Below, piece after piece: positions 34,627 to 48,642 of a DNA stretch of 64,000 nucleotides. Within the stretch, counting starts at the first letter, position 1. The number at the start of each line of letters is the position of its first letter. The stretch is from Rhodanobacter humi (GTDB taxonomy: Bacteria; Pseudomonadota; Gammaproteobacteria; Xanthomonadales; Rhodanobacteraceae): assembly GCF_041107455.1 (NCBI RefSeq), contig NZ_JBGBPY010000001.1, positions 1,426,001 through 1,490,000 of the forward strand, read 5' to 3'. The translations under genes and the position numbers were made by a program. The notes below the pieces were generated by a model that was not told the origin of the DNA, ran no database searches, and saw nothing but the letters and a program-made list of their open reading frames with translations.

Positions 34627-35901
34627 TTACGGTCCGTTGGCGCCCTCCGGCGCGCGCGGCGCGTCGGTTGCCGCGTCATGTCGCGATTGCCGCGCCACCA
34701 CGCTGGTCACGGTGAGGTCGGCGGTGACATTGCCCAGCGTGGCGAACACGTCGGGCAGCGCGTCCACCGCCAGCATCAGGCCCAGCGGCGCCACCGGCAC
34801 GCCCATCGCCTGCGCCACCGGCAGGTTGGTCGCCATGAAGGTGACCTGGCCCGGCAGGCCGACCGAGCCCAGGCTGATCACCACCGCCAGCGCCGCGCCC
34901 GCCGCGAGCTGCGCCGGCCCCAGGTGGATGCCGCTGGCCCAGGCGATGAAGCAGGCCGAAGCGATGTACTGCACCGGGCTGGTGAGCCGGCACAGCGACA
35001 CCGCCATCGGCAGCGCCAGCGCGGTGACCTGGGTCGGGTAGCCGAGCCGCCGTTCCGCGCTCTCCAGCATCGCCGGCAGCGAGGCCAGCGAGGACTGCGT
35101 GCTGGCCGCCACCGCCTGCGCGGGCGCCAGCGCGACCACGAAGCGGCGCAACCGTTCGCCGCCCCACAGCACCGCCACCGGCAGCATCAACACGGTGACC
35201 GTGAGGTGCAGGACGATCTCCAGCAGCACGAACACGCCCAGCGCGCGCACCATGCCCAGGCCGGCGCGCGCGCAGACGGCGAGGATCAGCGCGAACACGC
35301 CCAGCGGCGCCAGCCACAGCACCCAGCGCACGATCGCGATCATCGCGTCCGCGATGGCCTGGAAGAACTCCAGCAGCAGGGCGCGCCGCGCCGGCTGCAA
35401 CTGCGTCAGCGCGAAGCCGAGGCACAACGCGAACACCACCAGCGGCAGCATCGCGCTCTGCGCCGCGGCCATCAGCGCGTTGCTGGGCACGATGCCCTCG
35501 AACCAAGTGGCCCAGCCCGGCGCGGCCGCCACGGGGGCATTCGTGGCATGGCCGCCGAGCACTGCGCCCAAGGCCGGATCGTGCGGGAACAGCGCCAGCA
35601 GCGGCGGTGCGAGCAGCGCGGCGACGGCTGCGCCCAGCGCGAGCACCGCGATGATGGCGACGAGGGTGCGCCGCGCGATGCGCCCGGAAGCCGCCGCATC
35701 GCTGGCCGTGTTCACGCCCACCACCACCAGCGCCAGCACCAGCGGCACCACCGTCATCTGCAAGGCATTGAGCCACAGGTGGCCGATCGGCTGGGCGACG
35801 TCCGCCGCCCGCACGGCCCAGCCTGGAGCCCAGGCGGCGAGCGCCAGGCCGGCCAGCGCGCCCACCGCGAGGCCCAGCAACACGCGGGTAGTGGCGCTCA
35901 T
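34627..35901 (-). CDS. Dicarboxylate/amino acid:cation symporter (DAACS family)
   Basis: A 424-residue, GltP-like transporter with about eight membrane helices and two re-entrant loops. Family elements seen are [18 protein letters not shown] (helix 2), the serine-rich [17 protein letters not shown] of hairpin 1, and [20 protein letters not shown] of helix 7/hairpin 2, though the usual NMDGT motif is altered to TFMATN, so substrate choice may differ. Homologues import glutamate, aspartate or C4 dicarboxylates. Its ATG overlaps the stop of the L,D-transpeptidase (ATGA), linking it to the muropeptide-salvage genes, where it could recover the glutamate or related acids they release (inference). 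Confidence 0.85.
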
Positions 35902-36668
35902 CGGCCGGCCTCCAGGTCGGGCAGTTGCCATGCGTGGCGCAGGCGCGCGTATTCGTCCTGCGGCAGCAGCACGAACACCGGGTGTTCCTCCGGTTTCAGC
36001 CATGCCAGCAGGTGCTGCATGCTGTCCGGCGTCATCGCGGTGCAGCCGGTGGTGCCGGTGGTCGGCGACGACCACAGGTGCGCGAAGATGCAACTGCCGC
36101 CGTTCGGCACACCATCCGGGTTGTGCTCGATCACGAAGCCGAGCCGGTAGGCCTGGTCGCCATGGAAGTGCAGGTCGCGCCGCATCGGTTCGCTGGCCCC
36201 CTTCAGCGCCGCTGCGCCCACCTTGGCCGTGTCGGCGATGCGGTTGTAGAGCGGCGTGCCGCTGACGTCCATGCACCAGTCGGTGGCGGTGAGCGCGAGA
36301 TACGGCAGTGCCGTGTCCGCGTGGGCGGCGTAGCCGAACGCGGTACCGATGCGGAACACGCCGGCCGGGCTGCGGCCGTCGCCCTCGCGCTTCTGCGGGC
36401 CATCGTGTTGCGCCGGGTTCAGGCCGATGCCCCAGGCCGCGCCGCTCTTCCCGATCACCACCGGCCGCGCCGCGCCCACTTCATGCCACGCGCCGCCGTG
36501 GTCGCGCTGGTAGGCGTGCAACGTGCCTTCGATCGTGTTCCAGTCGGGCACGGTGACCAGAATCATCTGGCCGGCATTGGACCAGGCGGCGGACGGGGCG
36601 CTGGCGGCGACGGCGCTGCCTGCGAAGGCCAGGCCGGCGATCAGCAGAGTGACGAGGCGGTTGCGCAT
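35898..36668 (-). CDS. Secreted L,D-transpeptidase (YkuD-fold, COG3786-like)
   Basis: A 256-residue protein with a signal peptide (residues 1-22, cut after AVA). The catalytic domain carries HFHGDQAYRLGFVIEHN, the glycine-rich GGSCIFAHLW and the active-site Cys in PTTGTTGCTAM. The pattern is that of YkuD-type L,D-transpeptidases, which form or edit cross-links at DAP or attach D-amino acids to tetrapeptide stems; a carboxypeptidase role is also possible. GGAGG stands 10 nt before ATG 36668. It is downstream of the RpiR regulator and coupled to the symporter. Confidence 0.82.
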   Translation of the reverse strand: MRNRLVTLLIAGLAFAGSAVAASAPSAAWSNAGQMILVTVPDWNTIEGTLHAYQRDHGGAWHEVGAARPVVIGKSGAAWGIGLNPAQHDGPQKREGDGRSPAGVFRIGTAFGYAAHADTALPYLALTATDWCMDVSGTPLYNRIADTAKVGAAALKGASEPMRRDLHFHGDQAYRLGFVIEHNPDGVPNGGSCIFAHLWSSPTTGTTGCTAMTPDSMQHLLAWLKPEEHPVFVLLPQDEYARLRHAWQLPDLEAGR

Positions 36669-36696
36669 GGCCACGAAAACCTCCAGCGAAGGATTT

Positions 36697-36757
36697 CCTC
36701 TCCCGGCGGAAGAGGGGTTCAAGGGTATCGCTCTCCCGGAGGGAGCGGGGCTCGAGG
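36697..36757. repeat. Two CT-rich hairpin repeat copies
   Basis: CTCTCCCGGCGGAAGAGGGG and CTCTCCCGGAGGGAGCGGGG lie in tandem in the 120-bp gap between the regulator gene and the L,D-transpeptidase start. The repeat lies upstream of the transpeptidase ribosome site and may influence mRNA folding. Confidence 0.65.
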
Positions 36758-36788
36758 GTGCGATGTGGATGGACGTCCGAGCGGCCAT

Positions 36789-47602: not shown

Positions 47603-47631
47603 ACATCATCGCCCCCACGGCCATCACCGTC

Positions 47632-47810
47632 ATTCCGGCGCAGGCCGGACAAGCGCGAAGCGCGCAGAACGTCTGCATAGCAGACGGCCCCGCAGGGGCG
47701 AGCGCAGCGAGTCATCCAGTCGGGGAACTCGTGCGAAGCACACAATACCTGTTTCGTGTGCTTCGCACGCATGCTTCACTGGATTCCAGCTTTCGCTGGA
47801 ATGACGGGCA
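47632..47810. repeat. Composite intergenic repeat with several inverted pairs
   Basis: The gap between the second hydrolase and the amidase holds an outer inverted pair (CGTCATTCCGGC and GCTGGAATGACGGG), the hairpin GTGCGAAGCACAC...GTGTGCTTCGCAC (47729-47769) and GGATTCCAGCTTTCGCTGGA. The last is a relative of the repeat near 17.8 kb. No gene is seen. Confidence 0.7.
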
Positions 47811-47823
47811 AAATGCAGAAGCC

Positions 47824-48642
47824 ATGAAACCCATCGCCATGCTACAGACACACCCCACACCCCGCCTCCTGCGCACCGCCATCCTGCTGCTGTCGCTCGC
47901 ACTGCTTGCCGCCTGCGCGCCGCTGCCGCTGCGCAACCCGCTGGCCACCTGGGTGCCCTCGCCGAACCACGACGTCCGCCGACCGGTGCTGATCGTGCTG
48001 CACTTCACCGACGAGCACTCCGCGCAGGAAGCGCTGGACACCTTGCGCACGAAGAACAGTGGCGGCCCGGTGAGCGCGCATTACCTGATCGGCAGCGACG
48101 GCCACATCTACCAATTGGTGCCCGACCAGTTGCGCGCATGGCAGGCGGGGCCGGGACGCTGGGGCACCATCACCGACCTCAATTCGGCCTCCATCGGCAT
48201 CGAGCTGGACAACGACGGCCATTCGCCGTTCGCCCAACCGCAGATCGCCAGCCTGCTGCGCCTGCTCGCCGACCTCACCACGCGGCTGCACATCCCGCCC
48301 ACCCAGATCATCGGCCACGAGGATCTCGCGCCCGGTCGCAAGGACGACCCCGGCCCGCTGTTCCCGTGGCAGCAACTCGCCGACGCCGGCTTCGGCCGCT
48401 GGCCGCACGGCCCGTTGTGCGACCCGCCGCCCGGCTTCGATCCGTGGATGGCGATGGCCGTGGTCGGCTATGCGCTGGACGACCGCGCCGCCGCCGTGCG
48501 CTCCTTCCACCACCACTTCCGCGGCATGCAAGGCGACACGCTGGATGCCGAGGATCTGCGCATCCTCTACAACCTTGCGCAGCAGATCGAGCCAAGCGCG
48601 AACACCTGCGTTGCGCCTACGACGCAAACGTCGGCCGGCTAA
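47824..48642 (+). CDS. Lipoprotein N-acetylmuramoyl-L-alanine amidase, AmpD/AmiD-like
   Basis: A 272-residue lipoprotein. The signal peptide ends in lipobox LLAAC with Cys 31. The amidase_2 domain (~45-200) has zinc ligands in LIVLHFTDE, and IGHEDLAPGRKDDPGP with the second His and the Asp ligand, plus SIGIELDNDG. The C-terminal ~70 residues look like a helical peptidoglycan-binding module, as in AmiD. It would cut the bond between MurNAc and L-Ala at the outer membrane, generating the stem peptides used by the other enzymes of the locus. Its 3' end overlaps the convergent gene by 4 bp. Confidence 0.88.
   Translation: MKPIAMLQTHPTPRLLRTAILLLSLALLAACAPLPLRNPLATWVPSPNHDVRRPVLIVLHFTDEHSAQEALDTLRTKNSGGPVSAHYLIGSDGHIYQLVPDQLRAWQAGPGRWGTITDLNSASIGIELDNDGHSPFAQPQIASLLRLLADLTTRLHIPPTQIIGHEDLAPGRKDDPGPLFPWQQLADAGFGRWPHGPLCDPPPGFDPWMAMAVVGYALDDRAAAVRSFHHHFRGMQGDTLDAEDLRILYNLAQQIEPSANTCVAPTTQTSAG

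Follow-up and report, generated by a model that had tools for sequence, protein, structure and literature searches.

A probable peptidoglycan stem-peptide utilisation locus of Lysobacterales, carried in trimmed form by Rhodanobacter humi

A stretch of 64,000 nucleotides from Rhodanobacter humi (hereafter the window; all coordinates count from its first letter) was analysed for a cluster of eleven genes at 34627–48642. An earlier note had described this cluster as a self-contained peptidoglycan-peptide salvage locus under an RpiR/MurR-type regulator. All eleven reported genes were found there as intact open frames in two divergent arms, which start at 41031 (nlpc, minus strand) and 41192 (tgl, plus strand). 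The minus arm comprises sym, ldt, rpiR, epi and nlpc, and the plus arm comprises tgl, dapdc, ser1, vanx, ser2 and amid. Ten of the eleven products matched Pfam families above the cut-off, the exception being the YkuD domain of ldt, which fell slightly under it; the place, the divergent arms and the listed gene families were thus as described before. The features are given below, with functions as predicted from sequence.

34627–35901, minus strand: sym, SDF-family secondary transporter with an altered binding site (PF00375, 249.6 bits)
35898–36668, minus strand: ldt, candidate exported YkuD-type L,D-transpeptidase or carboxypeptidase (PF03734, 22.2 bits, cut-off 23.4)
36789–37646, minus strand: rpiR, RpiR-family regulator (HTH_6 and SIS domains)
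37648–38748, minus strand: epi, cytoplasmic L-Ala-D/L-Glu dipeptide epimerase (346.8 bits to B. subtilis 1jpm/1tkk)
38760–39620, no strand: dispersed self-complementary repeat with 45-nt perfect inverted arms (38862–38906 and 39449–39493)
39622–41031, minus strand: nlpc, exported SH3b and NlpC/P60 gamma-D-Glu-meso-diaminopimelate (mDAP) endopeptidase, DvLysin/PnpA type (PF12913, PF00877)
41091–41105, no strand: candidate RpiR operator GGAATATTTGATTCC, a conserved dyad and the sole exact match in the genome
41125–41161, plus strand: promoter-like block ATAAATTATTGACC-N17-TACACA reading into tgl (column conservation across 115 regions)
41192–42673, plus strand: tgl, exported transglutaminase-like protein (PF01841, 58.4 bits; C357, H392 and D408 conserved)
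42687–43955, plus strand: dapdc, cytoplasmic diaminopimelate (DAP) decarboxylase, second genomic copy (TIGR01048, 484 bits, cut-off 297.9)
43952–45592, plus strand: ser1, exported serine D-peptidase-fold hydrolase with DUF3471 (PF00144, 209.5 bits)
45589–46383, start probably at 45664, plus strand: vanx, exported VanX-type D-Ala-D-Ala dipeptidase of family M15 (149.1 bits to VanX 1r44)
46535–47602, plus strand: ser2, exported serine D-peptidase-fold hydrolase (PF00144, 233.9 bits)
47824–48642, plus strand: amid, lipoprotein N-acetylmuramoyl-L-alanine amidase, AmpDh2/AmiD-like (PF01510, 115.7 bits; 4bpa, 128.3 bits; 2bh7, 109.8 bits)

Repeated ATGA overlaps had been reported between the genes. 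The sym/ldt overlap is clear; those of dapdc/ser1 and ser1/vanx exist only if the upstream starts are used. The start of vanx is doubtful because a perfect 25-nt inverted repeat lies between ser1 and vanx (45607–45675). Imperfect inverted repeats of 40 nt and 23 nt lie between vanx and ser2 (46403–46506) and between ser2 and amid (47627–47807). In a crude export check, exported-type starts were found in six enzymes and a lipobox (LAAC) in amid; epi, dapdc and rpiR had none.

Recurrence was analysed in 147 genomes of the family, of which 64 contain the epimerase (E ≤ 1e-30, the genome of the window included). Neighbourhoods were retrieved for the other 63 family loci (some end at contig edges) and for 80 named loci, the genomes of the two sets being partly shared; 110 distinct epimerase tails are present among 145 loci. 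Fifty-seven of the 64 family loci have a close epimerase and seven a more distant one (57–77% identity). The 57 close loci contain rpiR (57), tgl (57), nlpc (56), ldt (53), ser1 (52), sym (52), vanx (51), dapdc (43), ser2 (41) and amid (5), together with four genes that are not in the window and encode a DUF819 protein (52), a TonB-dependent receptor (48), an M19 dipeptidase (44) and a FAD oxidase (41). Genes far from epi are undercounted in these figures, as the retrieved stretches stop about 12.9 kb upstream of it. In the seven loci with a distant epimerase, ldt (7), nlpc (7), DUF819 (5), vanx (4), M19 (2), sym (2) and FAD oxidase (1) were found. Reduced to its minimum, the recurring block is ldt-epi-nlpc, to which DUF819 is often added.

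The common order in relatives is FAD oxidase, sym, ldt, rpiR, epi, nlpc and DUF819 in one arm and tgl, TonB receptor, dapdc, M19, ser1, vanx and ser2 in the other. The gene-order comparison proposed in the earlier note thus turned out positive: the gene set and its arrangement are shared by genomes across the order Lysobacterales, including Rhodanobacter, Dyella, Luteibacter and Lysobacter, and the cluster was also found in Steroidobacter. The nearest named match of the epimerase is in Rhodanobacter sp. C06 (99% identity). Because set and order recur in this way, the gene set is not due to chance.

The region between the arms was then compared. From 135 loci, 117 distinct divergent regions (40–700 bp) were obtained; the anchor block was present in 115 and the two regions without it were left out. 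The best match to the dyad kept all 11 fixed bases in 34 regions, 10 in 43, nine in 14 and eight in 24, and shuffled upstream sequence reached at most eight of 11. The dyad lies at offset −39 in 87 regions, −38 in 15 and −8 in 13. In the genome, GGAATATTTGATTCC has one exact copy, at this locus, and two copies with one mismatch; a reversed control pattern gave one match. A one-mismatch copy, GGAACACCTGATTCC, lies at 10920–10934 of the window. The distribution of the dyad fits a local regulator of a single locus, because the only exact genomic copy lies here. Conserved order and a conserved dyad between the arms support the earlier proposal that the genes form a coordinated peptidoglycan-peptide locus under an RpiR regulator of its own. 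The MurR-type label was dropped: rpiR scored 82.8 bits with the MurR model NF012026 (cut-off 408), no murQ-like gene is present among the eleven, and rpiR was rejected as a MurR ortholog on that score.

The epimerase is genuine by sequence, as proposed previously. Nine positions (R24, K160, K162, D190, E218, D243, K267, D321 and D323) are near-invariant in 114 aligned rows, and the window reads RKKDEDKDD. In B. subtilis numbering we take them to be the KxK motif, three acidic metal ligands, the opposite Lys, the DxD motif and Arg24, the last being presumably the Glu-binding residue. The label of a DAP-decarboxylase-like enzyme was supported as well (484 bits with TIGR01048, cut-off 297.9). A second LysA-type match is present elsewhere in the genome within a frame of 877 amino acids, which suggests an aspartate kinase fusion. 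The idea that dapdc is the only LysA of the genome was therefore rejected, and since the other match exists, dapdc is apparently dedicated to the locus. At least two lysA-type matches (E ≤ 1e-60) were found in 58 of the 147 family genomes, 44 of which also have the epimerase. Four of the 14 extra-lysA genomes without a close epimerase were retrieved: the extra copy is accompanied by ser1, ser2 and an epimerase-like frame in all four and by vanx in two. Variant loci from genomes without a close epimerase (L198–L201) have an epimerase-like frame (89–103 bits) with dapdc, ser1 and ser2.

The NlpC/P60 protein had been described as a YkfC-like enzyme releasing L-Ala-D-Glu, an assignment that did not hold. 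Among solved structures it comes closest to DvLysin (3m1u, 100 bits over residues 129–443) and PnpA (6sqx, 55 bits), and it matched the YkfC structure 3h41 at 30.3 bits only. The architecture is SH3b plus NlpC/P60, and the Cys-His-His site is conserved (C333 in 115 of 115 rows, H393 in 115 of 115, H409 in 114 of 115), all of which is of the DvLysin/PnpA type. The N-terminal 128 residues, at the position of the c-clip domain, lie outside the DvLysin alignment and have no Pfam match. YkfC requires a free N-terminal L-Ala, which it reads through Asp256 (passage in PMC2954226). The window has Asn351 at that position; of 115 rows, 109 have Asn and six have Asp, and nlpc was rejected as a YkfC on this residue. 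PnpA yields dipeptide muropeptides from sugar-bearing muropeptides, and the same source names DvLysin as another muropeptide-active enzyme (passage in PMC7860986); because these relatives act on sugar-bearing muropeptides, nlpc was placed ahead of the amidase in the scheme proposed below.

Among the other wall enzymes, ldt and its ortholog at L171 scored 22.2 and 22.1 bits with the YkuD profile PF03734 (gathering score 23.4). Its Cys209, within GCTAM, is invariant in 40 rows and the start is signal-peptide-like; a PDB profile search gave no solved relative, only a single chance match (E 0.45). Some YkuD proteins work as L,D-carboxypeptidases. In vanx, His149, Asp156, Glu218, His221 and Arg105 are near-invariant, as in M15 enzymes, where we take them to have zinc-binding or catalytic roles. 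The solved relatives of ser2 include the alkaline D-peptidase 4y7p and D-Ala-D-Ala carboxypeptidases. M19 enzymes, found in relatives, cleave L-D dipeptides. The serine D-peptidase folds, the VanX-type M15 enzyme, M19 and the FAD oxidase may accept D-residues generally, and the locus could then degrade D-amino-acid peptides other than murein, such as the antibiotics of competitors, with wall enzymes as borrowed folds. This was judged very improbable: the epimerase keeps Arg24 (the presumed Glu-binding residue), the DAP decarboxylase and the gamma-D-Glu-DAP endopeptidase indicate murein, and a related block sits with NamZ in another bacterium.

The transporter encoded by sym had been called an acid symporter. 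Compared with GltPh-type structures, it has Ala387 in place of GltPh Arg397 and CRLTS in place of NMDGT. We take Arg397 to bind the substrate carboxylate and NMDGT to be a motif of acidic amino-acid symporters such as GltP and GltPh. All 88 distinct orthologs compared have R305, A387, D384 and N391, and also Ser308 of the NMDGT stretch. The acid-symporter label was therefore abandoned. Glutamate transport is less likely because Ala replaces Arg397 and an Arg stands in the NMDGT stretch in all 88, and the substrate is more likely to be a neutral or unusual amino acid.

The genes that recur in relatives and are not annotated here were searched with tblastn. Thirteen query proteins of relatives, covering DUF819, the TonB receptor, the FAD oxidase and M19, had no match in the 64-kb window (E < 0.1). 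A Pfam search found no DUF819 in the whole genome; the search for the TonB receptor, M19 and the FAD oxidase covered the window. In the same-genus loci L002–L004, DUF819, TonB receptor and M19 were likewise not seen and the FAD oxidase was kept. The earlier claim of a self-contained pathway was therefore rejected on the four genes without trace in the window. Because the FAD oxidase, DUF819, TonB receptor and M19 genes left no trace there, the window locus is a pruned version without the uptake genes of its relatives.

The analysis shows which genes are present, with intact frames, conserved catalytic residues, a conserved order and a conserved operator-like site; from this we infer every reaction, compartment and transport direction of the following scheme. 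Most steps would take place in the periplasm. Four enzymes (the YkuD protein, the VanX-type dipeptidase, ser1 and ser2) would trim D-Ala residues, the D-Glu-mDAP bond would be cut by the DvLysin-type NlpC/P60 enzyme, and L-Ala-D-Glu would be freed from the sugar by an amidase. Inside the cell, the epimerase would yield L-Ala-L-Glu and the extra DAP decarboxylase would convert mDAP into lysine. In fuller loci, the TonB-dependent receptor would take fragments across the outer membrane, the DUF819 protein would move L-Ala-D-Glu across the inner membrane, the M19 dipeptidase would split mDAP-D-Ala and the FAD oxidase would use up D-Ala. Since these four genes are missing from the window, this strain probably handles its own turnover products or fragments entering by other routes. 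The RpiR protein would bind the dyad between the arms and control this single locus.

We consider it probable that this is a trimmed version of a locus for the utilisation of peptidoglycan stem peptides that is conserved in Lysobacterales. The core of the previous reading, a coordinated stem-peptide locus with its own RpiR regulator, is well supported; its completeness and the YkfC-like, acid symporter and MurR-type labels are not. Several observations weigh against the stem-peptide utilisation reading. A consensus promoter scan called no promoter, the ATAAATTATTGACC-N17-TACACA block included. A terminator-like stem lies in the repeat between nlpc and epi (eight terminator-like sites were found, 5.6 being expected), and because of this repeat and stem the left arm may not be a single transcript. 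The epimerase scored 252.7 bits with the equivalog model NF041118 and did not reach its cut-off of 500; by its name this model represents the epimerase of another bacterium, and the B. subtilis enzyme matches epi at 346.8 bits. Similarly, vanx scored 182.2 bits with the equivalog NF033115 (cut-off 320, not reached). The scheme needs an amidase, yet amid is present in just five of the 57 close loci, so in the other loci a different amidase must act. Transporters vary, several Lysobacter loci having neither sym nor DUF819. Finally, AmpG, an S66 peptidase and Mpl are encoded elsewhere in the genome, and ordinary recycling does not need the locus.

These three proteins led us to reject the locus as a replacement for missing recycling; because of them it is an addition to ordinary recycling. 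Their presence also bears on whether the cluster is mainly a remodelling or recycling unit for the cell's own wall and not a device for nutrient scavenging. It counts in favour, as does the absence of the TonB receptor and DUF819 from the window, which would be expected after loss of foreign-fragment uptake. It also counts against, recycling being already served by AmpG, S66 and Mpl. An own-wall unit is further at odds with the patchy epimerase (64 of 147 family genomes), the second DAP decarboxylase and the TonB receptor in 48 of 57 close loci, and was considered unlikely.

The 861-bp repeat (38760–39620) separates nlpc from epi, leaving a gap of 873 bp where the median of 143 loci is 40 bp. 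With 40 of 252 candidates scored, it has at least 91 matches in its own genome, some being one place counted on both strands, and at least 11 other genomic places match over 590 bp or more. The sister locus L004 has a 754-bp gap at the equivalent nlpc/epi position.

The DUF819 protein of relatives (L013) matched PF05684 at 252.6 bits (cut-off 27). A CPA/AT transporter fold is predicted for the family (passage in PMC8396727). No function was found for this transporter-fold family in the open-licence literature, and a PDB profile search gave no match. DUF819 is present in 60 of the 147 family genomes. In 57 it has the orientation of epi and lies 1415–1771 bp upstream; the remaining three have no epi match and a DUF819 of an unlinked clade. 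The Fisher p for DUF819 in the family is uncorrected for relatedness. Outside the order, in a gammaproteobacterium (G492, locus L171), the genes after DUF819-nlpc-epi-ldt encode a sodium:solute symporter, a BadF-type kinase, a SIS protein of what we take, from its Pfam domains, to be the MurQ type, and NamZ. These genes after the block are an N-acetylmuramic acid salvage set, which brings the two halves of murein salvage together. Fusobacterium vincentii (L145) has epi-DUF819-serine hydrolase, and a subfamily profile run on 369 genomes of the class found DUF819-epi in three genomes of family f123 (L221–L223). In 75 of 128 Neisseria meningitidis genomes, the gene after that of an M15 peptidase encodes a DUF819 protein (passage in PMC12671195).

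A tree was made of 49 DUF819 proteins. It includes 11 Lysobacterales rows hand-picked from 111 predicted DUF819 proteins, nine of them from the 57 linked family copies. One clade (97/94) contains 16 rows, all epimerase-linked, apart from 30 unlinked rows, several of which were viewed over only about 1.5 kb on each side. This clade includes the three f123 genomes, another gammaproteobacterium and a Fusobacterium. In a second deep clade, one member lies beside an epimerase, a second has an epimerase-like gene 1.9 kb away on the opposite strand and a third adjoins a VanX-like gene; deep placements are unsure, with long branches. Arg24 is present in the aligned epimerases beside the first clade (the ortholog set of the window, L145, L171 and L221–L223). 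The two epimerases near the second clade have Gly and Tyr at this position and keep DxD.

On the strength of the epimerase linkage, DUF819 is proposed as an L-Ala-D-Glu importer. Whether DUF819 proteins are more generally murein-dipeptide permeases seems to us an even call: one group would supply L-Ala-D-Glu to Arg24 epimerases and another would supply other dipeptides to epimerases without Arg24, and with NlpC/P60 and YkuD enzymes they would form a portable stem-peptide module joined to varied uptake or sugar-salvage parts. Several counts go against the DUF819 proposal. Arg24 epimerases without a neighbouring DUF819 were found at L170, L174 and L176, and 15 of 19 loci titled Lysobacter have no DUF819, nor do L178–L182; other importers must therefore exist. 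In a sample of 349 genomes of the phylum, DUF819 scored over the cut-off in 28 and the epimerase (E ≤ 1e-60) was found in 10. Nine have both; the two genes are neighbours in two (G005 and G492) and apart in seven, where DUF819 is of the unlinked clade. In the class search, in a first look with up to five candidates scored per genome, 12 of 369 genomes matched, of which three are linked and three others viewed (G648, G735 and G740) are not.

In the loci that bear it, DUF819 could instead carry another substrate of the pathway (mDAP, D-Glu or D-Ala) or an ion, which we regard as possible, if somewhat doubtful. The fold family is closest to a Na+/H+ exchanger family (passage in PMC8396727), and the epimerase often occurs without DUF819 (15 of 19 Lysobacter loci, 26 of 80 named loci and the five same-order loci L178–L182). 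A different cargo fits less well with the retention of DUF819 beside the epimerase where little else remains, as in Fusobacterium (L145) and f123 (L221–L223), and with the difference in epimerase residue 24 between the two linked clades. Import of L-Ala-D-Glu by DUF819 would fill a gap: the passage of PMC2954226 on the B. subtilis scheme describes the permease for free murein peptides as unidentified, and DUF819 is a concrete candidate family for many bacteria.

No published description of the locus was found in the open-licence literature. The Bacillus dpp-ykf operon, which the locus would resemble in its working, was viewed in B. velezensis (L170) and consists of an M55 peptidase, the Dpp ATP-binding cassette (ABC) importer, an LD-carboxypeptidase, the epimerase YkfB, the NlpC/P60 enzyme YkfC and YkfD. 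Both systems have an epimerase adjacent to an NlpC/P60 endopeptidase, with a D-peptidase and an uptake system. Here, in contrast, YkuD replaces the LD-carboxypeptidase, the NlpC enzyme is of the DvLysin type and exported, and importers of the DUF819, SDF and TonB types stand in for the ABC system. The locus also has an RpiR regulator and a DAP decarboxylase. The closest published idea found is the B. cereus YkfC/YkfB scheme, with cleavage outside the cell, import of L-Ala-gamma-D-Glu and epimerisation inside (passage in PMC2954226); unlike B. cereus YkfC, which needs a free N-terminal L-Ala, nlpc has no Asp to read it. DvLysin (3M1U) and PnpA (6SQX) share with nlpc the predicted gamma-D-Glu-mDAP specificity, whereas the passages on them in PMC7860986 do not place them in a stem-peptide operon. 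The recycling pathway of E. coli (AmpG, AmpD, LdcA, Mpl, MpaA, YcjG and MurR/MurQ) has the epimerase step and an RpiR-family regulator in common with the locus. It differs in that here most hydrolases look exported, sugar genes are absent, the regulator is far under the MurR model, and AmpG, S66 and Mpl sit apart. The locus would thus be a stem-peptide pathway built of replacement parts, with YkuD for the LD-carboxypeptidase and DUF819 for the ABC importer, and it offers a new kind of candidate target for an RpiR regulator.

Some further observations were made around the locus. It splits the trp genes (at 34511–34627 and 48639–50887), with trpE on one side and trpGDC on the other. The sym gene reads towards trpG on the same strand at a distance of 115 bp, and trpG or trpE neighbours recur beside the locus in many relatives. 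A short gene at 48639–49277 has no Pfam match; relatives in which it and trpE were both observed have the two side by side. An S-adenosylhomocysteine riboswitch was found at 14580–14705 of the window (Rfam, 53.5 bits). At L174, one open frame (6576–8720) matches both the tgl and ldt profiles and is a possible fusion.

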